Source of the DNA: Chloroflexota bacterium
Lineage (GTDB): Bacteria; Chloroflexota; Anaerolineae; Anaerolineales; UBA11858
Assembly (NCBI GenBank): GCA_016865865.1
Contig: VGOC01000025.1
Coordinates: 1-36,605, forward strand
Direction: 5' to 3'
DNA: 36,605 nucleotides
Numbering within the stretch: the first letter of the stretch is position 1; each line of letters begins with the position of its first letter. Made by a program: the position numbers and the translations under genes. Shown here one piece after another: positions 3,772 to 35,660 of this stretch. The notes under the pieces were generated by a model that was not told the DNA's origin, did not search any database, and saw only the letters and a list, made by a program, of their open reading frames with translations.

Positions 3772-5775
3772 ATGGCAAAGCAAAGACGAACCCCCCAGGA
3801 ACAAAGCGCGGACCCCGCCGCGCAACAGATGTTGATCCGGGCTGAGGAGCTGGGCATTGGCACAGCCTTCACCCGCGCTGACGATATGGCGCCCTGCAAT
3901 ATCGGCGCGGCTGGATTGTGCTGCAAGCAATGCGGCATGGGGCCCTGCCGCCTGACCAGAGAGGGTGATGTAGGAGTCTGCGGCGCGACCATTGATACTG
4001 TGCAGGCTCGCAACCTGGTAAGGGCGATTTCAGCTGGCAGCGCAGCCCACTCCGACCACGGGCGCGATATGGCCTTCACGCTCAAAGCGACCGCCAATGG
4101 CGAAACGGAAGGCTACTACATTCGTGATGTAGCCAAGCTGCGCAACGTGGCTTCCTATTACGATATCGAAATCGAAGGCCGTTCCCCGGATGAGATTGCC
4201 AACGATCTGGCTGATCTCTACATCGCCCAGTTTGGGCAGCAGACTGGGGAAGTCGTCCCAGTGCGTCGTGCGCCTGAGAAACGGCAGAAAATCTGGCGAG
4301 AGCAGGGTGTGATTCCCCGGGGCATTGATCGCGAAGTCGTCGAGGCCTTGCACCGCACCCATATCGGCGACGATCAGGATTACGAACATATCCTCAATCA
4401 CGCCATCCGCACCGGGTTAGCCGACGGTTGGGCGGGCAGCATGATCGCCACTGACGTCTCCGATATCCTCTTCGGCACGCCGGCCCCAATCTTGGGTCAG
4501 GCCAACCTGGGGGTCCTGAAAGAGGACATGGTCAATGTGGTCGTCCACGGGCACGAACCCACCCTCAGCCAGATGATCGTGGCAGCCTCCCAGGATCCCG
4601 AGATCATCGCCTACGCCAAGAAAGCCGGCGCAAAGGGCGTGCAGCTCTCCGGTATCTGCTGCACCGCCAATGAAATCCTCATGCGTCAGGGCATCCCCGC
4701 GGCGGGCAATTTCCTGCACCAGGAGCTATCTATCCTGACCGGCGCGGTCGAGGCCATGGTCGTTGATGTGCAGTGCATCATGCAAGCCCTGGTTTCCCTG
4801 GCGGAGAAATTCCACACCAAGATCATCACCACCTCCCCCAAGGTGAGAATCAAAGGCGCCACCCATATCCAGTTCGACGAACACAAGGCGCTTACCATCG
4901 CCAAGACCATCCTCAAAGAAGCCATAGATAACTACAAGAACCGCGGCAAGACTCACATTCCACAGGATCGCGAAGACTTGATCCCCGGTTTCTCTCACGA
5001 ATACATCAACTACATGCTGGGCGGCTCCTACCGGGCATCCTTCCGCCCGCTCAACGATGCCATCATGTCCGGTCGCATCCGCGGCGTGGCCGCCATCGTC
5101 GGATGCAACAACCCTCGCACCAGGCAAGACTGGATTCACAACTACGTGGCCGAAGAATTGCTCAAACAGGATGTTCTCATCGTCGAGACCGGCTGCGGCG
5201 CAATCGCTGCCGCCAAGTCAGGACTTTTACTGGGCGAGGCCGGATTGGAAAAAGTTGGCCCTGGCTTACAGGAAATCTGCGAGGCGATTGGTATCCCGCC
5301 TGTCCTGCACATGGGTTCTTGTGTAGACAACACCCGCATCCTGACCGTGCTGACGCAGATGGTCGAGGAGGGCGGCCTGGGCGACGATATAGACCAGATC
5401 CCCGCCGTCGGCCTGGCCCCTGAATGGATGAGCGAGAAAGCCCTGGCGATCGCCACATACTGCGTTGCCTCGGGGGCATACGTCATCTTCGGCGGCTCAT
5501 CCCCAGTCAGCGGCTGGCCCGACAAACTCTCCAATAGCGATTTGGTGCTCAAGCACATCAGTTCAGGTTGGGAGGAAATCTACGGCGGCAAGCTGGAATT
5601 CATCCCTGACCCCGACGAGATGATCAAGGCCACCCTGGCGCACATAGATAAGAAACGAGCTGCTCTCGGCTTACCCGAATACGACCCCGATCGTTTCGGC
5701 CAAAGCGGAGACGCCCACATGCTCGAACTGGAAGCGCTGCCATGGTTAGAGCGCAAGGCTGCTATCTACGGATAA
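3772..5775 (+). CDS. cooS: Anaerobic Ni-containing CO dehydrogenase catalytic subunit
   Basis: CNIGAAGLCCKQCGMGPCRLTREGDVGVCGA (Fe-S cluster region), VVHGHEPTLSQMI, GICCTANE, VGCNNPRTRQD, ETGCGAIAAAKSGLL, HMGSCVDNTR: CooS/AcsA signatures. Confidence 0.96.
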   Translation: MAKQRRTPQEQSADPAAQQMLIRAEELGIGTAFTRADDMAPCNIGAAGLCCKQCGMGPCRLTREGDVGVCGATIDTVQARNLVRAISAGSAAHSDHGRDMAFTLKATANGETEGYYIRDVAKLRNVASYYDIEIEGRSPDEIANDLADLYIAQFGQQTGEVVPVRRAPEKRQKIWREQGVIPRGIDREVVEALHRTHIGDDQDYEHILNHAIRTGLADGWAGSMIATDVSDILFGTPAPILGQANLGVLKEDMVNVVVHGHEPTLSQMIVAASQDPEIIAYAKKAGAKGVQLSGICCTANEILMRQGIPAAGNFLHQELSILTGAVEAMVVDVQCIMQALVSLAEKFHTKIITTSPKVRIKGATHIQFDEHKALTIAKTILKEAIDNYKNRGKTHIPQDREDLIPGFSHEYINYMLGGSYRASFRPLNDAIMSGRIRGVAAIVGCNNPRTRQDWIHNYVAEELLKQDVLIVETGCGAIAAAKSGLLLGEAGLEKVGPGLQEICEAIGIPPVLHMGSCVDNTRILTVLTQMVEEGGLGDDIDQIPAVGLAPEWMSEKALAIATYCVASGAYVIFGGSSPVSGWPDKLSNSDLVLKHISSGWEEIYGGKLEFIPDPDEMIKATLAHIDKKRAALGLPEYDPDRFGQSGDAHMLELEALPWLERKAAIYG

Positions 5776-5892: not shown

Positions 5893-8800
5893 ATGTCAAG
5901 ATACATCGCAAAACGCGCGATCCGCGGCTCCAACGCCCTGGTGATGGAAGCAGAACTCATGCTCCAAAGAGCGCTGAAAGAAAAAGGAGCGGATACTAAG
6001 GTCGAGTTTCCCAATACGGCCTACTACTTGCCGACCATCTACGGTATGACTGGCTTGAAAGTGACCACATTGGGGCAACTCGAGGAAGTGCTGGATCATG
6101 CCCGTTCCCTGTTACACCCCATCCCCGCTGAAAACAAATGGACGCCCTACCTGGGTGAAACCCTGGATAGCGGCATGGCCACCCTGCTGGCTGCCGAAAC
6201 CATCGAGGCGGTGCGATTCGTGTACGGATTGCAGCCAGAGCCTTTCCCCGGCATCGAATTGGCCGGCGGCACAGCCTACCCTCAGCTCGATAACGGCGGA
6301 GGTCCGGCCAACCACCTCAACGGACCGATTGATGACATCCAGCTTCGCTCCTGGGGTATTCAATTGGTGGATGGTCGTATGCCCGGCTTCGCCGCTATCG
6401 TTGGCGCAGCCAAATCCAACGAAGTCGCCGTCAAGATCGTGCGCGAACTCCAACAACGCAACATCCTGGTCTTCCTATCTGGCAATGTCAATGGACGCAG
6501 CATCATCCACCAGCTTCAGGAAGAGGGCGTCGAACTTGGTTACGATACCTACACGATCCCCTTCGGCACCGACACGCTCAGCGCCATCTACGCCCTGGGT
6601 TTCGCCACCCGTTCGGCGCTGACCTTCGGCGGCATAGACGCTGGCCAGGCGCGCGACATCCTGCTCTACAACAAGAAACGCGTCTTTGCTTTCGTCATCG
6701 CCCTGGGCGAGGTGGATGACCTCAAATACGCCGCCGCAGCCGGAGCGATCAACTACGGCTTCCCGGTCATCGCCGACACGGTCATCCCCGAAATCCTGCC
6801 CACCGGCGTGACCGATTACGAGCACGTCATCTCGATGCCCTTCGATCAGATCCCCGGCAAGGACGATCTCGAACGCGCCGAACGCCTGGTGCAAAAGTGC
6901 ATCGAGGTGCGCGGCGTGAAGATCAAGATGACCGAAGTGCCTGTGCCCATCCCCTACGGTTCGGCCTTCGAAGGCGAAGTCGTGCGCAAGGCCGATATGC
7001 GCGTCGAATTCGGCGGCAAGTATTCCCGCTGTTTCGAATTCTTGCGCATGATGCCCATGGATGAAGTCACCGATGGGGTGATTCAAGTGGTCGGGCCAAC
7101 CTTCGACCAGGTCGAGGACCAGGGCGCCATGGATTTGGGCATAGTCGTGGATGTGGCCGGGCGCAAAATGCAAGAGGACTTCGAGCCTGTGCTCGAACGT
7201 CAGATCCACTACTTCGTCAACGGCGGCTCGGGCCTGCAGCACATCGGCCAGCGCGATATCGCCTGGATCCGCATCTCGAAAGAGGCCACCGAAAAGGGTT
7301 TTACCCTCGAGCATTTCGGCAGCATCCTTCACGCCCGCCTGCATGCTGAATTTGGCGCGATAGTGGACAAGGTACGCGTTACACTTTACACCGACCCTGC
7401 CGAAGTCGAAAAACAACTGGCGGAAGCCCGCCAGGCCTATGATTACCGCAACAAACGCCTGGCCGACCTGACCGACGACGCCGTAGACGAATTCTACTCT
7501 TGCACCCTATGCCAATCCTTTGCCCCAAACCACGTTTGCATCGTCAGCCCCGAGCGCCTGGGCCTGTGCGGCGCATATAACTGGCTGGATTGCAAGGCTT
7601 CCTTCAATATCAACCCCACTGGCCCCAACCAGCCCATTTCCCTGGGCAAAATGCTCGATCCAGAGATCGGTTACTGGTCCGGCACGCTGGATTACGCAAA
7701 AGTAGGCTCTCACGGCGTGGTGAAAGATGTCGCCATGTACTCCATTATGGAGAACCCCATGACCGCCTGCGGCTGCTTCGAGTGCATCGTCATGTATATC
7801 CCCGAGGTCGAGGGCGTTTTCATCGTCAGCCGCGAAGATACCGGCATGACTCCCATGGGGATGACCTTCAGCACCCTGGCTGGCATGGCTGGCGGCGGCG
7901 TGCAGACCCCCGGTGTGATGGGCGTGGGCAAATACTACCTGGTCAGCCCCAAATTCATCTCCGCCGATGGCGGCTTCAAGCGCGTGGTCTGGATGAGCGC
8001 CAACCTCAAAGAGCGCATGGCCGACGAATTTCGGGCTGTAGCCGAGCGAGAGGGCGTCCCCGACTTGATTGACCGCATTGCCGACAGCAAGAATGTCACC
8101 ACTGTCGAAGAACTGGTCGCCTGGGTCAAAGAGAAGAGTCACCCCGTGCTGGATATGGGACCCATGGTCGCCAAGTCCGCCCGTGTGGAAGGGGCTGAGG
8201 ACGTCATCGCCCAGGCCGAAGCCGTGGTCGAAAAAGCGATGGCAAAGCCCGACGCGCCAGCGGCTCCTGCTCCCGTAGCGGAGAAACCTGCTCCCCCCGC
8301 GGCTGTTCCTGCTCCTCAGGCTCCCTCTGCTCCCGTTGCTTCCATGCCCCCCCGCCCCCTGGCTCCTTCTGCTCCCGCCGCCCCCGCCGGCTCCGTCGAA
8401 CAGCGCGTCGAACGCCTGGAACGCGCTGTCACCACCCTGATTGGCTCACTGGTCGGCGCCCTGGCCGAAATCGGCGAAGTGGATATCTCTAAAGTGCAGG
8501 TTTCCACAGCCCCCGTTGCTCCCGCGCCCCCCAGCTCCCTGGCGCCAACCGCCCCCCCTGCTCCCCTTGCTCCGCCAGCCCCCGTCCTCGAAGACAAACC
8601 CTGGTTGCCTGAAGGCGCGAAGACAGCCATTGCCAAAGAAAGCTGGTCTGGCGCAGTGCGTCAGGTCACCATCGGCGCGACCGCGGCTCAGGGAGGCAGC
8701 CGCACAAAGACTGTCACTGTTGGCGGCGAAACCGCCATGCCCTTTATGGACTTCGAAGGCCAGATACCCAATGCCCCTATCGTGGCTGTCGAAATCAAAG

Positions 8801-9579
8801 ACCGCCGACCCGACGACTGGTCAGACCTGCTCATCCAGGAATGGGGCGATGTGGTTGATGACCCTGGCAGGTGGGCAAAAGCCGCCGAAGAGGCCGGCGC
8901 CGACCTGATCCTGCTGCATCTCTCGTCAACCGATGCGGAGGGCAAGCCCAACACACCCGAGGCCGCTGTCGCTGCCGCGAAGAAGGTCCTGGCAGCCACC
9001 GGTCTACCCCTGGCCGTCTTCGGCCCCGGACAGGCTGAGATAGACAATCAACTCCTGGTGCCTGTCGCTGACGCCTGCAAGGGTGAACGGCTGTTGCTCG
9101 GCGTTTGCGAAGACAAGAACTACCGCACTATCGCTGCGGCTGCCATGGCCAACGGCCATCTGGTCAACGCCCGCACAGCCATGGATGTCAACCTGGCCAA
9201 ACAGCTCAATATCCTCATCAACGATATGGGCCTCCCCCTGGATCGTGTGATCATGGACCCGACCACCGGCGCCCTGGGCTACGGTTTCGAGTACGGTTAC
9301 TCTGTCATGGAACGCCTGCGCCTGGCCGCCCTCCAGGGAGACAGCATGACCCAAATGCCGATGCTGGTCACCCCCGGGGAAGAATGCTGGAAGACCAAAG
9401 AGGCCAAGGTTGGCGTAGATGTACCTCAGGAATGGGGCGACTGGCGTGAACGGGCCATCACCTGGGAATCGCTGACCTCTCTCATGCTGATCGAGTCCGG
9501 CGCGGACATCGTGGTGGTACGCCATCCCGAGAGCCTGCGCTGCACGAATGAGGCGATCAAGGATTTGATGGGAGAATAA
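5893..9579 (+). CDS. acsB-acsD: Fused acetyl-CoA synthase (AcsB/CdhC) and corrinoid iron-sulfur protein small subunit (AcsD/CdhD)
   Basis: N-terminal ~750 aa is ACS with A-cluster ligands CTLCQSFAPNHVCIVSPERLGLCGAYNWLDCKASF and CGCFECI; then Pro/Ala-rich linkers; C-terminal ~300 aa AcsD-like TIM barrel (MPFMDFEGQIPNAPIVAVEIKDRRPDDWSDLL...VIMDPTTGALGYGFEYGYSVMERLRLAAL). Uninterrupted single ORF. Confidence 0.94.
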   Translation: MSRYIAKRAIRGSNALVMEAELMLQRALKEKGADTKVEFPNTAYYLPTIYGMTGLKVTTLGQLEEVLDHARSLLHPIPAENKWTPYLGETLDSGMATLLAAETIEAVRFVYGLQPEPFPGIELAGGTAYPQLDNGGGPANHLNGPIDDIQLRSWGIQLVDGRMPGFAAIVGAAKSNEVAVKIVRELQQRNILVFLSGNVNGRSIIHQLQEEGVELGYDTYTIPFGTDTLSAIYALGFATRSALTFGGIDAGQARDILLYNKKRVFAFVIALGEVDDLKYAAAAGAINYGFPVIADTVIPEILPTGVTDYEHVISMPFDQIPGKDDLERAERLVQKCIEVRGVKIKMTEVPVPIPYGSAFEGEVVRKADMRVEFGGKYSRCFEFLRMMPMDEVTDGVIQVVGPTFDQVEDQGAMDLGIVVDVAGRKMQEDFEPVLERQIHYFVNGGSGLQHIGQRDIAWIRISKEATEKGFTLEHFGSILHARLHAEFGAIVDKVRVTLYTDPAEVEKQLAEARQAYDYRNKRLADLTDDAVDEFYSCTLCQSFAPNHVCIVSPERLGLCGAYNWLDCKASFNINPTGPNQPISLGKMLDPEIGYWSGTLDYAKVGSHGVVKDVAMYSIMENPMTACGCFECIVMYIPEVEGVFIVSREDTGMTPMGMTFSTLAGMAGGGVQTPGVMGVGKYYLVSPKFISADGGFKRVVWMSANLKERMADEFRAVAEREGVPDLIDRIADSKNVTTVEELVAWVKEKSHPVLDMGPMVAKSARVEGAEDVIAQAEAVVEKAMAKPDAPAAPAPVAEKPAPPAAVPAPQAPSAPVASMPPRPLAPSAPAAPAGSVEQRVERLERAVTTLIGSLVGALAEIGEVDISKVQVSTAPVAPAPPSSLAPTAPPAPLAPPAPVLEDKPWLPEGAKTAIAKESWSGAVRQVTIGATAAQGGSRTKTVTVGGETAMPFMDFEGQIPNAPIVAVEIKDRRPDDWSDLLIQEWGDVVDDPGRWAKAAEEAGADLILLHLSSTDAEGKPNTPEAAVAAAKKVLAATGLPLAVFGPGQAEIDNQLLVPVADACKGERLLLGVCEDKNYRTIAAAAMANGHLVNARTAMDVNLAKQLNILINDMGLPLDRVIMDPTTGALGYGFEYGYSVMERLRLAALQGDSMTQMPMLVTPGEECWKTKEAKVGVDVPQEWGDWRERAITWESLTSLMLIESGADIVVVRHPESLRCTNEAIKDLMGE

Positions 9580-9634: not shown

Positions 9635-10966
9635 ATGGCACTATCAGGCATTCAAATCTACAAACTGCTGCCGCAGACCAATTGTAAAGACTGTGACTTC
9701 CCCACCTGTCTGGCGTTTGCGATGAAACTGGCGGCCAAACAGGTTGAATTATCACTCTGCCCCCACGTCAGCGACGAGGCTATGGCGCAGCTTTCCGAAG
9801 CCGCTGCGCCACCTGTGCGGCCTTTCGCGCTAAGCTCCAACGGCCACGAGGTCAAAGCCGGCAACGAGGTGGTGCTTTATCGTCATGAAAAGACCTTCTA
9901 CAGTCGCCCAGGCTTGTTCCTGCGGGTGTACGACTCTGAAAGCCCTGCCGAGATCAAAGCCAAAGTAACCCCTGCGGATGCCTACAAAGTGGATTACGTG
10001 GGGATGAACCTCGAAATAAGCGGCTTCGTCATTCAATCCAATGGAGGCAGCTTCGTTGGCGCGGTTAAAGCCGTGCGTGAAGTCAGCAGTCGCCCGCTGA
10101 TCTTGATCGGAAGGCCGGAGGCGCTCGAAGCAGGTCTGGCTGTACTCGCTGAGGGCGAGAAACCCATGATTGGCCATGCCAACCAGGAAAACTGGCAGGC
10201 GATGGCTGAACTGGCGAAAAAGCGCAATGCTGCCCTGGCTGTCTCTGCTGATACCATAGACGAAATGGTTGATCTGACGGGGAAGATCACCGAGGCTGGC
10301 GCAAAAGACCTGGTATTGGCGCCCACGCAGCGCGGTTTCCACGGCGCACTGACCGCCAACACAGTCGCCCGGCGCATGGCCCTCAAGTCGAATTTCCGCC
10401 CCCTGGGTTTCCCGATCATCAGTTTTCCCGGCGATGTCAGCGATCCAGCCACGGAGATCATGCTGGCTGCTCAGGCCATCGGCAAATACAGCGGCTTCAT
10501 CGTCCTGGATCACTTCAGCCCCGAAACCATCTACCCGCTGCTGGTGTTGCGCGAGAATATCTACACCGACCCGCAGAAACCCATCCAGGTACAGCCGGGC
10601 GTGTACGAGATCAACAACCCCAGCCCAGAGTCTCCTGTGCTGGTGACCACCAACTTCAGCATCACCTACTTCAGCGTGGCTAACGAGGTCGAGAGCGCTG
10701 GCCTTCCGGCATGGCTGCTGGTCACCGAGGCCGAGGGCATGAGCGTGCTGACGGCCTGGGCGGCGGGCAAATTCGACGCTGAACGCATCGCCAAAGACGT
10801 CAAACGCTTCGAGGTCGGCGATAAGGTCAGCGCCAAGAGGATCGTCCTGCCTGGACATACAGCCGTACTCTCGGGCGAACTCGAAGAAGAACTCCCCGAC
10901 TGGAACGTTCTCGTCGGCCCGCGCGAAGCTGTAGATATCCCGGCGTATATGAAGCAGGCGCTATAA
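9635..10966 (+). CDS. acsC: Corrinoid iron-sulfur protein large (gamma) subunit
   Basis: IYKLLPQTNCKDCDFPTCLAFAMKLAAKQVELSLCP 4Fe-4S motif; methyltransferase-like and C-terminal corrinoid-binding domain (WAAGKFDAERIAKDVKRFEV...RIVLPGHTAVLSGELEEELPDWNVLVGPREA). Confidence 0.94.
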   Translation: MALSGIQIYKLLPQTNCKDCDFPTCLAFAMKLAAKQVELSLCPHVSDEAMAQLSEAAAPPVRPFALSSNGHEVKAGNEVVLYRHEKTFYSRPGLFLRVYDSESPAEIKAKVTPADAYKVDYVGMNLEISGFVIQSNGGSFVGAVKAVREVSSRPLILIGRPEALEAGLAVLAEGEKPMIGHANQENWQAMAELAKKRNAALAVSADTIDEMVDLTGKITEAGAKDLVLAPTQRGFHGALTANTVARRMALKSNFRPLGFPIISFPGDVSDPATEIMLAAQAIGKYSGFIVLDHFSPETIYPLLVLRENIYTDPQKPIQVQPGVYEINNPSPESPVLVTTNFSITYFSVANEVESAGLPAWLLVTEAEGMSVLTAWAAGKFDAERIAKDVKRFEVGDKVSAKRIVLPGHTAVLSGELEEELPDWNVLVGPREAVDIPAYMKQAL

Positions 10967-11065: not shown

Positions 11066-12985
11066 ATGGCCCAACACACTGTAAAGTTCGACATCGCTGA
11101 AAAGCCTATCCACGTTCCCACGGGGATGCTGGTCAGTGAGGCCGCGGCAGAGGCTGGCGTCGAAATCAACCAGCCCTGTGGCGGTCAGGGGCGTTGCGGT
11201 CGTTGCGCAGTACGGATCAGCGAGGGAGAAATCCGCCGCCGAAGCACCTTGCGGCTCACCGTGGAAGATGTAGCCAATGGCTACGCGTTAGCATGCCAAT
11301 CGGTTGTCGAGGGGAACGCCGTCATCGAAGTGCCGCCGCAGGAAAAGATCGAACGCCGGCTGACTACTGACCGCACTGCCGCCGAGGTCATCGTACCGGA
11401 GGGATATGATCCCGCCCGATCACAGACCATCCGCCGCCTGTACCTGACGTTGACCCCGCCCAGCATGGACGACCAGACCGACGACTGGAGCCGCCTGCAA
11501 ACCGCTGCCCGCAAACAGGCTGGGGTGACGGATCTGAAAACCAGTCTGACGATGCTCCGAAGGATGGGAGAGGTTGCCAGAGAAGGCGACTGGAAAGTCA
11601 CGGCGGTGCTCAACGCCAAAACCTGGGATTGCCCGGATTGTCCCGCCGATCTATTGGAAATCTATCCCGGCCACATCCCGGAGGATACCCCCCTGTGGGG
11701 AATTGCGGTTGACATTGGCACCACCACCGTCTCCCTCTGGTTGACTGATTTGCTCACCGGCCAGGTGCGCGCCCAGGTCGCCGAATACAATCAGCAAATC
11801 GCCCGCGGAGAAGATGTGATCTCGCGCATCATCTTCGCCAGTAAAAACGGCGGGGATGAAAAAATGCGCGGCCTGGTTCTCGACACCATCAACGAACTCA
11901 TCGAGCGCGCTTGTGATCGCTCCAAAGCCGAACCCACAGAAATCATCAAGGCCACCATCGCCGGAAACAGCACGATGATGCACCTGTTGCTGGGAATCCC
12001 GGCTGCCAGCATCCGGCTGACACCCTTCGTTACAGTCGTGAACCACATCCCCTCGATGTCCGCAGGCGATGTGGGGCTGGGCATCCATCCCATGGCCATC
12101 GTTGACTGCCTGCCAGGCGTGGCCAGTTACGTTGGCGCAGATATCAGCGCCGGAGTGTTAGCCACGGGAATGGATACTGCCAATAAGGTCACTCTTTTCA
12201 TGGATGTCGGCACGAACGGCGAAACTGTGCTTGGCACAAGCGATTGGCTGGTGACCTGCGCCTGTTCGGCTGGGCCAGCCTTCGAGGGCGCCGGTGTGCT
12301 GCATGGGATGCGCGCTACCAAAGGCGCTATCGAAGAAGTGTGGATCAACAGCAAAACCTACGAACCATCCTTCAGGGTGATTGGCAATGTCAAGCCCGGC
12401 GGCCTGTGCGGCAGCGGCCTGATTTCGCTCCTGGCTGAGATGTTCCTCACCGGCGTGGTTGACAAAGGGGGCAGTATCAACACCAAACTGGCCTCACCAC
12501 GCGTAAGGGAGGGCGATCACGGCAGCGAGTATGTGATTGGCTGGGGACATGAAACCCAAAACGGAAAAGATATCGTCATCACCAATGTTGATATAGATAA
12601 TCTGTTGCGCGCCAAAGCAGCCATCTATGCTGGTTTCACCGTTTTAGCCAATAGCGTTGGCCTCTCCCTGGAAACGGTGGATCAAGTTCTCATCGGCGGT
12701 TCCTTTGGCAAATACATCAACGTCGAGAAAGCTGTTCAAATTGGCTTGCTGCCGGATATGCCCTGGGAGCGATTCCAATTTCTGGGCAACACCTCGGTGC
12801 GAGGGGCCTATATGGCGCTCATTGATCACAACCTTCGCCGCCGCATCACCGAGATCGCTGCCCGAATGACGTATATCGAGCTTTCGGCTAACAATACTTT
12901 CTACGACGCCTTCATGTCGGCGTTATTCTTGCCGCACACGGATATGAAACGGTTTCCGTCGGTCGCGGCAGCAATGGAAAAGTAA
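11066..12985 (+). CDS. acsV: ASKHA-type reductive activator of corrinoid protein (RACo/AcsV) with N-terminal 2Fe-2S ferredoxin domain
   Basis: EINQPCGGQGRCGRCAVRISEG...ALACQ 2Fe-2S; GIAVDIGTTTVSLWLTDL and FMDVGTNGETVLG phosphate-binding motifs of DUF4445/RACo. Confidence 0.9.
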   Translation: MAQHTVKFDIAEKPIHVPTGMLVSEAAAEAGVEINQPCGGQGRCGRCAVRISEGEIRRRSTLRLTVEDVANGYALACQSVVEGNAVIEVPPQEKIERRLTTDRTAAEVIVPEGYDPARSQTIRRLYLTLTPPSMDDQTDDWSRLQTAARKQAGVTDLKTSLTMLRRMGEVAREGDWKVTAVLNAKTWDCPDCPADLLEIYPGHIPEDTPLWGIAVDIGTTTVSLWLTDLLTGQVRAQVAEYNQQIARGEDVISRIIFASKNGGDEKMRGLVLDTINELIERACDRSKAEPTEIIKATIAGNSTMMHLLLGIPAASIRLTPFVTVVNHIPSMSAGDVGLGIHPMAIVDCLPGVASYVGADISAGVLATGMDTANKVTLFMDVGTNGETVLGTSDWLVTCACSAGPAFEGAGVLHGMRATKGAIEEVWINSKTYEPSFRVIGNVKPGGLCGSGLISLLAEMFLTGVVDKGGSINTKLASPRVREGDHGSEYVIGWGHETQNGKDIVITNVDIDNLLRAKAAIYAGFTVLANSVGLSLETVDQVLIGGSFGKYINVEKAVQIGLLPDMPWERFQFLGNTSVRGAYMALIDHNLRRRITEIAARMTYIELSANNTFYDAFMSALFLPHTDMKRFPSVAAAMEK

Positions 12986-13067: not shown

Positions 13068-13991
13068 ATGTACATCATTGGCGAAAATATTCATATCATA
13101 TCCCCTGCAGTCAAAGAGGCGCTCGCGAACCGGGATAGGGAATTCTTCATGGAACTTGCGCTCAAGCAGGTCGAGGCTGGCGCCAAGGCAGTTGATCTCA
13201 ACCTCGGCCCGCGCAAGAAGGACTGGGAAGAAGTTTTCCCGTGGATGGTGGAGACGGTCGAGGCGGTCGTTGATGTGCCCCTGTGTATTGACACCACTAA
13301 CGTGGATGGCATGGAGGCCGCCGTCAAAAAGATCACCAAAGCGCAGCCGATTCTCAATTCAACCTCTGCCGAACCAGAACGCCTGGAAAGGGTGCCTGAG
13401 TTGGCGAAGAAGTACAACACGAAGTTGATCGCCCTGACTATGGAGAAGAGCGGCATCCCCGTCGCCTCCGATGAGCGCGTCAACATCGCGCTGGAGAAGT
13501 TGATCCCACGCTGCCTGGAATTGGATTTCCCCATCAATGATCTGATCATTGATCCGCTGGTGCTGACCGTCTCCGGCTGCCAGCCATACTGCCCTGAACT
13601 GATCGAAGCCATCCGCACCATCCAATTCGCCTGGGATCCGCCCCCCATGATTTCGGTGGGCTTGTCGAATGTCTCCAACGCTGTTCCGACGAAGAATCGC
13701 CCCCTCATCGACAGCGTTTACTGCGCCATGGTCATGGGCGCCGGCCTGAAAATGATGATCGCCAATCCACTCGAAAAAGAGTTGATGGAAGTCATTCGCA
13801 TCATCGAAGAGCGCGATGAGAGCACCCCCCTCAGCCGCCTGTATCTCAAGATTCACGATCGCATCGAGGCTATGGAATACCCCACTGCCGGCGATGTGGA
13901 CATGAGCGACCCCGAACAGGTCAAAGTCTGGAAGACCGTGCAGATCCTGCTCAACCAGGTCATCTATGCGGATTCATATTTGGAACAGTGA
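13068..13991 (+). CDS. acsE: Methyltetrahydrofolate:corrinoid iron-sulfur protein methyltransferase
   Basis: MYIIGENIHIISPAVKEAL...AGAKAVDLNLGPRKKDWEEVFPWMVETVEAVVDVPLCIDTTN...PILNSTSAE: pterin-binding MeTr family; operon position. Confidence 0.92.
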   Translation: MYIIGENIHIISPAVKEALANRDREFFMELALKQVEAGAKAVDLNLGPRKKDWEEVFPWMVETVEAVVDVPLCIDTTNVDGMEAAVKKITKAQPILNSTSAEPERLERVPELAKKYNTKLIALTMEKSGIPVASDERVNIALEKLIPRCLELDFPINDLIIDPLVLTVSGCQPYCPELIEAIRTIQFAWDPPPMISVGLSNVSNAVPTKNRPLIDSVYCAMVMGAGLKMMIANPLEKELMEVIRIIEERDESTPLSRLYLKIHDRIEAMEYPTAGDVDMSDPEQVKVWKTVQILLNQVIYADSYLEQ

Positions 13992-22417: not shown

Positions 22418-23197
22418 ATGAAATTAGCCATTAGTGGTAAAGGCGGTGTGGGAAAGACGACCCTGGCGGCGCTCTTGGCGCAAGCCTACGCCGACATAGG
22501 CCGCGAGGTATTAGCGGTAGACGCCGATCCTTCGCCGTGCCTGGCGGGGGCATTGGGCTTCCCCGATGAACTGCGGGCGCGGCTCAAGCCCATCGCCGAA
22601 ATGGACGCCTTGATCGAGGAGCGCACCGGCGCCAAACCGGGCACGGTAGGCGGTTTCTTCACCCTCAACCCGCGTGTTGACGATATCCCCGAACGCTTCA
22701 GCGTGGTGCATCGCGGGGTGCGCCTGCTGGAAAGCGGCTCTGTGGATTTGGGTGGGTCGGGTTGCATCTGCCCAGAGGCGGCCATGCTCAAGACGCTCTT
22801 CACGCACCTGCTCTTCCGAAAGGACGATGTGCTCATCCTGGACATGTACGCCGGGGTCGAGCACCTGGGCCGCGCCACGGTGGATTTCGTGGACGCGATG
22901 ATCATCGTCGTCGAGCCGACCCGCCGCAGCCTGGGCACCGCACGACAAATCAAGAAGCTGGCAAACGACATCGGGCTGGATCGCCTCTGGCTGGTCGGGA
23001 ACAAGGTGCGCAATCGGGACGAGTCAGATTTTCTCGAATCAGAATCACCTGGAATTCCAGTCCTGGGCTTCCTGCCTGCGGATTTGGGAGTCCAAGAGGC
23101 CGATCGTTTGGGCATCCCCGTTTACGATCACGTGTCATCTTTAAAGGGTTCAGCGGAAAAAATGGCGGAGAGGTTGAGTGAGGAGTCAGGGTGTTAG
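22418..23197 (+). CDS. cooC: CooC-type nickel-insertion ATPase (paralog 1)
   Basis: MKLAISGKGGVGKTTLAALLAQAYADIGREVLAVDADPSPCLAGALG; ESGSVDLGGSGCICPEAAMLKTLF; DMYAGVEHLGRATVDFVDAMIIVVEPTRRSLGTARQI. Confidence 0.93.
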   Translation: MKLAISGKGGVGKTTLAALLAQAYADIGREVLAVDADPSPCLAGALGFPDELRARLKPIAEMDALIEERTGAKPGTVGGFFTLNPRVDDIPERFSVVHRGVRLLESGSVDLGGSGCICPEAAMLKTLFTHLLFRKDDVLILDMYAGVEHLGRATVDFVDAMIIVVEPTRRSLGTARQIKKLANDIGLDRLWLVGNKVRNRDESDFLESESPGIPVLGFLPADLGVQEADRLGIPVYDHVSSLKGSAEKMAERLSEESGC

Positions 23198-23263: not shown

Positions 23264-24052
23264 ATGACAACAACCATCGCATTAGCCGGCAAAGGCGGTG
23301 TGGGTAAAACCACCGTGGCCGGTATGGTTATCAAATACCTGGCTCAGACGCAAACGGGCGCCATCCTGGGCATTGATGCCGACCCCAGCAGCAACCTGAA
23401 TATGGTATTAGGCCTGGATTTGGAATGGACGGTGGGCGACATCCGCGAGGACATGTTGACCCAGGTGCGAAATTCCCTGATGCAATCTGGCGCGGCGATG
23501 GGGTCGCTGCCCGGCGGCGTAACAAAAGCCGAACACCTGGATTTCGAAATCCGCTCATCGCTGGCGGAAGGCGACCATTTCGACTTGATCGCCATGGGCC
23601 GTGGCGAGGGGCCGGGTTGCTACTGCGCTGTCAATCATAATCTTCGGGAAGTGATTGACGCCATCGGCGGCGGCTACCATTATGTGGTGATTGACAACGA
23701 AGCCGGCATGGAGCACCTCAGCCGCCGCACGACGCGCAATGTGGATCATTTGCTGGTGGTCAGCGATCCTACGCAGCGCGGCATCATTACCGCCGAGCGC
23801 ATCGCCGCCATACGGGATGAGCTGGACATTGATATCGAGAACACCTACTTGATCTTGAACCGGCTTTCTGGAGAAATGCCAGCCCCCTTGCAGGAGCGCA
23901 TCGCCAAAATGGATATTCCGCTTCTGGGCGTGATCCCAGCCAGCGCTGAATTGGCCGAGTTCGAGTTCGATGGCCGCCCTCTGGTGGAATTGGGCGATGA
24001 ATCGCCGGTTTATCTGGCAGTCGTGAGGATGATGGAGAAAGTTTTGGGGTGA
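23264..24052 (+). CDS. cooC: CooC-type nickel-insertion ATPase (paralog 2)
   Basis: MTTTIALAGKGGVGKTTVAGMVIKYLAQ...LGIDADPSSNLNMVLG; GRGEGPGCYCAVNHNLREVID; DNEAGMEHLSRRTTRNVDHLLVVSDPTQRGI. Confidence 0.93.
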   Translation: MTTTIALAGKGGVGKTTVAGMVIKYLAQTQTGAILGIDADPSSNLNMVLGLDLEWTVGDIREDMLTQVRNSLMQSGAAMGSLPGGVTKAEHLDFEIRSSLAEGDHFDLIAMGRGEGPGCYCAVNHNLREVIDAIGGGYHYVVIDNEAGMEHLSRRTTRNVDHLLVVSDPTQRGIITAERIAAIRDELDIDIENTYLILNRLSGEMPAPLQERIAKMDIPLLGVIPASAELAEFEFDGRPLVELGDESPVYLAVVRMMEKVLG

Positions 24053-32063: not shown

Positions 32064-33518
32064 CTAATTGGATTGCTTTTCGGTCTTTTCGATCACAGAA
32101 TCTAACTTTTTCGATATCCTTTTATCCAACGGCGCGGGATGGTAGGTGTCGAAAATCTCTCGCACTTTGGTGTTCGTGCGGTCTTCCATCGTAAGCGAAC
32201 CAGCCAACTTCCAACTTTCATACGAAGAGCGGTCGAACAACTTTGGCGCCCAATTCTTACGGAAGTGCCGGTAGGTGTGGTCTTCCCCGACGAAGTGACC
32301 GCCGGGGCCGACCCGATTGATCACATCGAGGGCGATGGTTTCCTCATTGATCTCGATCCCCTCCATGAAGCGTTTGACTAATCCGGCTACCTCGTCCATC
32401 GCAACGATCATATCGTAGGATGTCGTTATGCCCGCTTCGAGGTAGCCCACATCGTGAATCAGGTTACCGCCGCCGAGCGCTGTAATCATCATCCATATGG
32501 CCCCCTCCGCAGCAGCCTGCTGGTCGAAAACCTTGGAATCGCTGCATCCCGTGAAACTGAATATGGGGATTTGATAATAATGGCACATCTCGCTGAACGC
32601 GGTCATCTCCAACATGAACTCCGGCGCGGCGTAAGAGATCAGGCTCTGGCTCATATCCATGAACAGGATGCCGCCTGCCCCGATCATCGGCGCGCCCTCG
32701 CGGATCAACTGAACGATCAGCAAGCCGCTGAGCTGTTCGGCGTTGGCCTGCACCAGCGCCCCGGCCAGCGTCACCGGCGCCGTCGCCCCGACCATCGTCG
32801 CAGGGGTATAGACCACCGGCAAACCCTTACCGGCCAGAAAGAGCAGTTTCTCACAGCTCTCTTTGGCGTGGGTTAGAGGGGAAATCGGTTCGCTATACAG
32901 CGCGCAGAAGGGGTTACGTTGCAGAGCCTCGGCGCCTCCGGCGACGGCTTCAGCCATCTCGATGATCGCCTCCAGGTTGACCCGATTCCAGGCGGTGTAA
33001 ATAATCGGCTTGGTGGTGTTCGATACCATCTCCCGGAAGTGGTATATATCGGAGAGAGTCTCGGTCACATCCGAGGCGATGCCCATGCACATCAGGAAGG
33101 AAATATTAGGCAGGGCATCCACTAATTTAGCCACGTTGGCTACATCCGCCAGGACAGCCCGGCGGCGCTCGCCAGTGTAGGCATCCACTACGAAGGGCGT
33201 GTCCGAGCCGGTGCCGTAATATCCTTTGCGGCCTTCCAGTTCCATTGCGGGGTTGCCATCTCGATCACATAACACCACCCGCGTCGGCGCGCTGCGGATA
33301 GCCCACTCGATCAGGTGCGGGGGGATGCGCACCCGCTCGCCATCCAGCCAGCAGCCCGCCTTCTTCAATAACTGGCGCACCTCTGGGACGAGGACATTAA
33401 CCCCGGTTCGCCTCAGCAGCTCCAGGGTCGCGCTGTGTATGGCTTGCTTTTGGTCATCGCTGAGCAGCTTTATTCCGGGGGATACCTGGGCAACGAAATC
33501 GCTGTTGATCATTTGCAT
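32064..33518 (-). CDS. Trimethylamine methyltransferase (MttB) family protein, non-pyrrolysine type
   Basis: Full-length uninterrupted ORF: SPTR..KGYYGTGSDTPFVVDAYTGERRRAVLADVANVAKLVDALPNISFLMCMG; GAGGILFMDMSQSLISYAAPEFMLEMTAFSEMCHYYQIPIFSFTGCSDSKVFDQQAAAEG. Confidence 0.88.
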   Translation of the reverse strand: MQMINSDFVAQVSPGIKLLSDDQKQAIHSATLELLRRTGVNVLVPEVRQLLKKAGCWLDGERVRIPPHLIEWAIRSAPTRVVLCDRDGNPAMELEGRKGYYGTGSDTPFVVDAYTGERRRAVLADVANVAKLVDALPNISFLMCMGIASDVTETLSDIYHFREMVSNTTKPIIYTAWNRVNLEAIIEMAEAVAGGAEALQRNPFCALYSEPISPLTHAKESCEKLLFLAGKGLPVVYTPATMVGATAPVTLAGALVQANAEQLSGLLIVQLIREGAPMIGAGGILFMDMSQSLISYAAPEFMLEMTAFSEMCHYYQIPIFSFTGCSDSKVFDQQAAAEGAIWMMITALGGGNLIHDVGYLEAGITTSYDMIVAMDEVAGLVKRFMEGIEINEETIALDVINRVGPGGHFVGEDHTYRHFRKNWAPKLFDRSSYESWKLAGSLTMEDRTNTKVREIFDTYHPAPLDKRISKKLDSVIEKTEKQSN

Positions 33519-33536
33519 TCTCCTTCGAAGTTTTTC

Positions 33537-35660
33537 CTAAACAGAAACCGCTTCCTCTACGATCTCGACTTTCACCGCCGAGACTTTATACTCAGGGATT
33601 TTGGCTACCGGGTCAACATAATTGGGCGTGAGGAGATTGGCGGCTGCCTCAGCATAGTGGAAGGTCATAAAAACCGTGCCTGTTGGGGAACGCGGGGTGA
33701 TCAATACATTCGCAACCACATCCCCCCGGCGAGAACTGACCCGGACTGGTTGACCGTCCTGTGCGCCCAATTTTTGGGCGTCCTGAGGGTGAATCTCGAT
33801 TTCGGCCTGGGGGGCCAGGCTCTCCAGCCCCGGCGAGCGGCGCGACATGGTGCCGCCATGCCAGTGGAACAGGACACGCCCCGTCGAGAGAATAAAAGGA
33901 TACTCCGAGTCCGGGAGTTCTTCGGCCTCTTCGAACTCCACGGGGGTGAATAGACCCCGGCCGCGCGAGAATTTGCTTTCATGTAAATACTGCGTCCCCG
34001 GGTGATCTGGCGTGGGGCAGGGCCACTGGATGCCGCCCAAGCGCTCCAGCCGGGCATGAGATATCCCTCCATAGATCGGAGTAACGGCAGCAATCTCGTC
34101 CATGATCTCCGCCGCGCTCTCGTAAGACCAGTCCGCGCCCATGCGGTTCGCCAAATCGGTGATGATCTGCCAATCTGGGCGGGCTTCACCGGGAGGCTCC
34201 AGGGCCGGGCGGACCATCTGCACGCGCCGCTCGGTGTTGGTGAATGTGCCCCACTTCTCTGCAAAGCTGGCTGCGGGAAGCACCACATCGGCAAACTGAC
34301 CGGTTTCGTTCAGGAAGATGTCTTGGTGTACCAGGAAATCAACTCGTTCCAATGCCTGGCGCACATGGTTGAGGTTGGGGTCGGAGAGCATGGGGTTTTC
34401 GCCCATAATATAGAGAGCATGCACTTCGCCTGCCAGAATGGCGTCTACGATCTCGGTGATGGTCAGGCCGATTTGGGTATCCAGACGGCGGACGGCGGGC
34501 GATGGACTGCCATTTGGCCGCGGTCTGTCGTCTGCGGTCGTTATTCCCCATGCTTTCTCGAATTTCTCGCGAACCGCTACATCTGTCACATTTTGATAGC
34601 CTGGGTAGACGTTCGGCAGGCCGCCCATATCGCAGGCGCCCTGGACATTATTTTGCCCCCGGAGCGGATTCAACCCGGCACCTAGCCGTCCGATGTGGCC
34701 GGTCAGCAAGGCCAGGTTGACCAGCGCTTTGACATTGTCGGTGCCGGTGGTGTGCTGGGTGATGCCCATCGCCCAGAAGATGGATGCGTTCCCGGCTTTA
34801 GCGTACAGCCGGGCTGCTTCGATGATTTCCTGGGCGGGCACACCGGTCACCTCCTTGCCGCGTTCGGGAGTCCACTCGCCAACCAGGGCGGCGAATTCTT
34901 CATAGCCCTCGGTTCTTTCTTCGATAAAGGCCAGATCGTGCAATCCCTCCTTGATAATCACATGGGCGATGGTGTTGATCAAGGCAATATCTGTGCCGGG
35001 GCGCTGGCGCAGGTGCAGGTGGGCAAACCCTGCCAGCTCGATGCGGCGCGGATCGGCCAGGATCAACTTGGCCCCTCGTCCGCACACTGCCTTCTTCATT
35101 TGCAGGGCTAATACCGGGTGCGCTTCAGTGGTATTCGACCCGATTACGAAAATGACCTCCGCCTCGGGGATCTCCCGAATCGAGTTCGTCATCGCTCCAG
35201 AACCCAGGGTTGCGGCCAGACCGGCCACAGTGCTGGAGTGTCAGAGGCGAGCGCAGTGATCTACTGTGTTGGTGCCGATCACGGTGCGGGCGAATTTTTG
35301 CAGCAGGTAGTTTTCTTCGTTAGTGCACTTGGCCGAGGTGAGAAACGCTACACTGCGAGGCCCATACTGATCGCGAATTCCCTTCAGACGGTTGGCTACA
35401 CGATCGAGCGCCTCATCCCAACTCGCCGGGCTGAACTCAGCTCTTCGGCTGGCGCGCGCCAGGGGCCGGCGCAGACGATCCGAAGCGTGGACAAAATCGT
35501 AACCGAAGCGGCCTTTGACGCAGAGCTGGCCGAAATTGACTTCGTTATCGAAGCGGCCTTCCACACGAAAGATGATCTCCTCGCGGATGTGCAGATCGAG
35601 CTGGCACCCAACGCCGCAGTAGGAGCACGTGGTTTGAACAATACGATCAGCTTTTAGCAT
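33537..35660 (-). CDS. fdhA: Selenocysteine-containing molybdopterin formate dehydrogenase alpha subunit (TGA at 35241-35243 read as Sec)
   Basis: The two ORFs (35241-35660 and 33537-35228) are in the same frame, separated by one TGA: ...[31 protein letters not shown]. N-terminal 4Fe-4S CSYCGVGC...CVKGRFGYDFV; SECIS-like hairpin directly downstream. Confidence 0.93.
35195..35238 (-). promoter_or_regulatory. Bacterial SECIS-like hairpin within fdhA
   Basis: Minus strand after TGA: CA-CTCCAG-CACT-GTGGCC-GGTCT-GGCCGC-AACCCTGGGTT-CTGGAG; apical 6-bp stem with GGUCU loop (35222-35218) and a closing CTCCAG/CTGGAG stem. Confidence 0.85.

Follow-up and report, generated by a model that had tools for sequence, protein, structure and literature searches.

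Does a single polypeptide of an uncultured Chloroflexota bacterium carry both acetyl-CoA synthase (AcsB) and the small subunit (AcsD) of the corrinoid iron-sulfur protein (CFeSP), and what would such a covalent link do? Loci of the Moorella/Carboxydothermus type encode the same A1-A2-A3 synthase with the same A-cluster ligands and the same AcsD family, accompanied by the same neighbours cooS, acsC, acsV and acsE. In those systems, AcsB and AcsD are two distinct proteins; in the window analysed here (the whole stretch of 36,605 nucleotides of contig VGOC01000025.1, assembly GCA_016865865.1) they form one chain.

One open reading frame encodes a complete synthase and a complete AcsD

The acsB-acsD fusion gene (5893–9579, plus strand) is a single open reading frame with an ATG start and no internal stops, encoding 1228 amino acids. 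Its AcsB part (5893–8169, plus strand; residues 1–759) comprises the A1, A2 and A3 domains and matched NCBIfam model NF040764 at residues 10–759 with 968 bits (cut-off 800), covering the full profile (1–705 of 705). The AcsD part (8623–9576, plus strand; residues 911–1228) matched NF003376 at residues 911–1226 with 382 bits (cut-off 280), again at full length (3–312 of 313), and did not reach the cut-offs of two other AcsD/CdhD models, NF040759 and TIGR00381. The Pfam domains followed each other in the order CODH_A_N, CdhC, ACS_CODH_B_C and CdhD, and the CODH-binding A1 domain of the bacterial type was present (PF18537, residues 23–110, 102.5 bits). In a PDB sequence search, solved ACS chains aligned to residues 7–759 and the CFeSP small subunits 4djd_D and 2h9a_B to residues 913–1226 (4djd_D: E=2.6e-93, residues 915–1226); no chain spanning both parts was found.

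All six cysteine ligands of the A-cluster (7501–7776, plus strand; C537, C540, C549, C559, C626 and C628), including the C-G-C motif, were present with the Moorella spacing; we take them to match Moorella Cys 506/509/518/528/595/597. The A-cluster motif columns were invariant across 19 aligned fusions, and the AcsB part is predicted to be a CO-methylating acetyl-CoA synthase. The fusion protein is a complete bacterial acetyl-CoA synthase followed by a linker and a complete AcsD, and the initial, sequence-only reading of the frame as a complete A-cluster enzyme plus a complete AcsD holds with both families above their NCBIfam cut-offs. Its observation that the window contains no separate acsD could be extended to the whole genome (3.25 Mb, 94% complete). 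A CdhD-family search revealed no second acsD; matches besides the AcsD domain of the fusion were AcsC, AcsE and one weak hit below the cut-off.

The locus has the order cooS - acsBD - acsC - acsV - acsE, all on the plus strand. The cooS/acsA gene (3772–5775) encodes the catalytic subunit of Ni-CO dehydrogenase (TIGR01702, 603 bits). The start of acsC (9635–10966), encoding the CFeSP large subunit and partner of AcsD, lies 56 nt downstream of the fusion stop codon (NF003195, 512 bits; FeS and CdhD Pfam domains). The corrinoid reductive activator (RACo) gene acsV (11066–12985) scored 647 bits with NF040756, below the cut-off of 800, with RACo Pfam domains above cut-off. The acsE gene for the methyl-H4folate:CFeSP methyltransferase (13068–13991) reached 217 bits with NF005719, below the cut-off of 259, and contains a Pterin_bind domain.

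Further downstream, the window contains two adjacent CbiA/ParA-type ATPase genes (22418–23197 and 23264–24052, plus strand), possibly CooC-like nickel-maturation ATPases of CODH/ACS. On the minus strand, an MttB-family (trimethylamine methyltransferase-like) gene and a molybdopterin oxidoreductase adjoin each other (together 32064–35660). The latter occupies two frames, an Fe4S4 part (35241–35660) and a main part (33537–35228), for which a frameshift, a gene split in two or a recoded (selenocysteine) formate dehydrogenase are possible explanations.

Distribution of the fusion among relatives

Relatives were scanned with one genome per species, and the best 80 of 196 confirmed loci, nearly all from Chloroflexota, were read; calls of fused and split genes are based on draft assemblies, almost all of them metagenome-derived. 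A search for proteins with both ACS and CdhD domains and their placement on trees, which had been proposed as a check, yielded 35 fused proteins, no two of them identical, in independent assemblies. Because the best 80 of the 196 loci were read, fusions in other phyla could be missed.

Five of the six genomes of the window's genus, assembled independently, carry an intact single-ORF fusion; in the sixth, the fusion gene is broken over contig ends. Genus g4 of the same family was mostly fused, and every unbroken copy found there was fused. One genome of the family (G010) has split acsB and acsD with a CBS gene between them, and directly checked members of other families of the order are split. 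Additional fusions suggested by an automated open-frame call (G039, G083 and others) were rejected, as the DNA shows separate acsB and acsD frames. The labels Thermoguttaceae (L033) and Desulfobacterales (L017) may result from misbinned contigs. The fusion is a clade-wide inherited trait of uncultured Chloroflexota; the sequence-only reading, which presented it as the case of one protein, was right about the fusion and too narrow in scope.

Two other features were observed in AcsB of relatives. In-frame inteins occur in L067, L068, L073, L077, L078 and L081, and in L083, where the intein is cut by a contig end. They are inserted just before A-cluster residue C626 (MTA|C...VKN|CGCFEC) and measure about 520–535 aa, with a 219-aa mini-intein in L073. 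Three scanned inteins (L068, L077 and L081) gave Pfam Intein_splicing and LAGLIDADG_3 matches, with splicing scores just below cut-off; a search of open-access papers gave no report of an intein in AcsB. Furthermore, a second, distant ACS homologue with 34–40% identity was found in L115 (G019:C21), G017:C144 and G090:C136, alongside the main acsB of the same genomes. The L115 homologue has about 620 aa and aligns from about AcsB residue 150.

The linker contains a conserved helix between variable segments

About 150 Ala/Pro-rich residues (760–910) separate the AcsB and AcsD parts of the window protein. After the A3 domain, a conserved tail motif (EDVIAQAEAVVE; 8197–8232, plus strand; residues 769–780) lies inside a predicted helix (residues 768–783), and residues 759–783 displayed 75% identity among the window's genus and its nearest relatives. 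It is followed by a variable Ala/Pro-rich segment (8242–8391, plus strand; residues 784–833; 36% identity, pN/pS 0.56), a conserved helix (SVEQRVERLERAVTTLIGSLVGALAEIG...; 8392–8490, plus strand; residues 834–866; 81% identity, pN/pS 0.185) and a second variable Ala/Pro-rich segment (8491–8580, plus strand; residues 867–896; 34% identity, pN/pS 0.58). In the same set of genomes, the Ala/Pro segments had 34–36% identity, 18% gaps and a pN/pS of ~0.57, AcsD 81% identity and a pN/pS of 0.174, and ACS 89% and 0.10. The linker helix is conserved to a similar degree as AcsD, identity being the safer measure of the two because synonymous sites are near saturation.

Linkers of the fused proteins vary between about 125 and 280 aa and are nearly devoid of aromatic residues. 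Ala and Pro together account for 25–54% of the linkers, as opposed to 10–16% of ACS and 14–21% of AcsD. In both fused clades, a short helix with the pattern L(R)xALxAALxELGG is seen repeatedly in linkers of unequal length. Comparable, possibly homologous helices occur in other fused groups, e.g. AVNMLRRALVAALAELGG and SIRRALEAALRELGG. An AF2 model (19 sequences, mean pLDDT 57.8) displayed helices at residues 768–783 and 835–859, the latter with low pLDDT; the linker had a pLDDT of about 30–46 and was flanked by better folded parts, AcsD being mostly of high pLDDT. A PDB search with residues 741–866 gave no significant match to a solved structure, and no second copy of the linker helix that could act as a homotypic dock was found elsewhere in the genome, in which the helix is unique. 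Owing to its length, its Ala/Pro content and its fast evolution outside one helix, we read the linker as a long flexible arm and not as a rigid clamp; it is predicted to be a flexible-type arm holding a helix under selection.

Origin of the fusion and relation to a CBS-pair gene

Among the best 80 of 196 loci, a small CBS-pair gene was detected at 20 of 40 split loci versus 1 of 29 fused loci, counts that are lower bounds since detection started from one query. At split loci the gene sits between acsB and acsD, and at the sole fused locus possessing it (L068) it is located 3′ of acsD. The intervening position was seen in L027, L029, L030, L031, L039, L043, L050, L055 and L080 as well as in L106, L118–L120 and L124–L127; L050 has up to three copies. 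The CBS-pair protein is a possible sensor of adenylate or another ligand for CODH/ACS. That the linker itself is a fused CBS protein was rejected, as linkers do not resemble CBS domains and 28 of 29 fused loci lack the CBS gene.

Split acsB-CBS-acsD loci of Chloroflexota (e.g. L027, L029, L030, L106, L118 and L124) are the closest relatives of both parts of the fusion and share the gene order of the window. In contrast to the fusion, their acsB stops right after the A3 domain, and the CBS-pair gene is often found at the place of the fused linker. Since the acsB-CBS-acsD order is found in the split relatives closest to the window's clade, the fusion in this clade probably took the place of the CBS gene.

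The ACS tree contains a large fused clade including the window, a fused clade B, which falls together with split genes, and the pair L067/L068. In the AU test, one clade of all fused genes was rejected on this tree (p=0.003), whereas L067/L068 joined to the first fused clade was not (p=0.785). The AcsD tree, calculated from a shorter alignment, rejected neither a single fused clade (p=0.237) nor the union of clade B with its neighbours on the ACS tree (p=0.488). A single origin of all fusions is thus rejected by one tree and not by the other. The outcome on the synthase tree calls for two or more fusions, or for one fusion with later recombination of the 3′ part, and either would fit the trees. 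At locus L008, ACS groups with the window's genus and AcsD with genus g4, so recombination inside the fused gene may occur. Very few changes between the fused and the split state are required on both trees, and the trait is therefore stable.

Discussion

We favour, with moderate confidence, a natural inherited AcsB-AcsD fusion, the tether of which would keep CFeSP close and in a 1:1 ratio, yet free to swing. The AcsD part would pair non-covalently with AcsC encoded by the neighbouring gene to form CFeSP, so that the synthase would bring its own methyl donor at 1:1. The arm would hold CFeSP near the A-cluster at a raised local concentration, which might favour methyl transfer. CFeSP has to meet AcsE and AcsV as well, and the arm appears long enough for its release and for visits to this methyltransferase and this reactivator. 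Halfway along the arm, the conserved helix would probably serve as a docking or self-association site. A generic disordered chain of 150 residues is estimated to have an rms span near 100 Å, and a polymer estimate for such a chain gives a local CFeSP concentration of ~0.1–0.6 mM. A swinging tether is plausible on physical grounds, given this span and a few tenths mM of effective concentration. One point against the need for a tether is that split relatives evidently manage without it.

The sequence-only reading had assumed that the tether sets the AcsC-AcsD heterodimer beside the A-cluster and that this could stabilise a methyl-transfer supercomplex. The first part follows from the anatomy because AcsC is encoded directly downstream. 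The second probably needs changing, as the length, composition and fast evolution of the arm suggest a tether that increases local concentration and sets a 1:1 stoichiometry, not a rigid supercomplex clamp. In an AlphaFold3 model of ACS-CoFeSP, the C-terminal (A-cluster) domain of ACS binds the corrinoid-bearing domain of the CoFeSP large subunit, and the N-terminal domain contacts the beta subunit, the AcsD homologue (PMC12289521).

CFeSP of acetogens is a standalone 83-kDa heterodimer, and in methanogens ACS and CFeSP form a complex of 8:8 stoichiometry that is stable (PMC11474084). The methanogen ACDS complex (CdhA-E) thus holds both partners together at 1:1, as proposed for the fusion. Its ACS also shares with the fusion a flexible C-terminal extension past the A-cluster domain, ~75 aa long in methanogens (PMC11474084). 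Unlike the fusion, the complex depends on non-covalent contacts, its ACS has no A1 domain and AcsD is not covalently joined. A continuation of the methanogen extension into the linker was rejected; a match to 9c0s_E reached residue 793 and vanished once most of the A3 domain was left out of the query.

A bolder version is offered tentatively, as we hold it to be somewhat less probable than its opposite. It describes a B12 swinging-arm ACS, in which the tether evolved at least twice in Chloroflexota and a docking helix would direct CFeSP between A-cluster, AcsE and AcsV in an E2-like channelling. In the swinging arms of pyruvate dehydrogenase E2, Ala/Pro-rich flexible segments flank a short conserved helical element. 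The linker has a similar layout, with variable Ala/Pro-rich segments around a conserved helix and a carrier joined to a catalytic domain. The E2 carrier is a lipoyl-lysine, whereas that of the fusion would be a separate B12 protein held via AcsD. Pfam gave no match to E2 or a peripheral-subunit-binding domain (PSBD) in the fusion, nor did the PDB search with residues 741–866 give a significant one, and the likeness is an analogy only.

The strongest alternative, which we nevertheless regard as unlikely, is that the fusion chiefly secures co-synthesis and 1:1 stoichiometry for assembly, with no kinetic gain and the linker as a mere spacer. It is in line with the stability of the fused and split states on both trees and with the variation in linker length. 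The fusion also goes with a missing CBS gene, and since fused loci have no intervening CBS gene, it may stem from a deletion joining neighbour genes. A helix conserved like AcsD between two freely evolving segments is, however, unexpected for a pure spacer, and similar helices are found in both fused clades. Far less probable is a polyprotein that is processed into separate AcsB and AcsD by a protease or an internal translation start, the fusion being genetic only. Disordered Ala/Pro linkers are protease-prone, and in a few relatives an ATG accompanied by an SD-like motif lies near AcsD by chance (e.g. L036, L075 and L098). Against this, the linker contains a conserved helix, the window lacks an ATG close to AcsD, and no conserved internal start with a Shine-Dalgarno sequence before AcsD was found among the fused genes compared; an internal start yielding free AcsD was rejected on this ground. 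An assembly or frameshift artefact, conceivable because almost all genomes are metagenome assemblies, is of negligible probability, as the same architecture occurs in dozens of assemblies from varied sites and groups, the codon pattern of ACS, helix and AcsD is that of purifying selection, and neither chance nor a frameshift can account for the same full-length ORF in five independent same-genus assemblies.

Neither 5.4 million open-access papers nor papers on the Wood-Ljungdahl pathway, CODH and Chloroflexi yielded an account of AcsB fused to AcsD. Fused proteins are probably already in public databases without comment. A C. autoethanogenum complex, cited in PMC12289521, has been reported since (PDB 9fzy and other entries).

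The tethered, swinging CFeSP that we favour would belong to a real, clade-wide and apparently undescribed variant of a known enzyme. A natural 1:1 tether provides a ready construct for structural studies and a template for engineered synthetic Wood-Ljungdahl modules. Furthermore, fused and split relatives within one order represent a natural experiment on the benefit of tethering.
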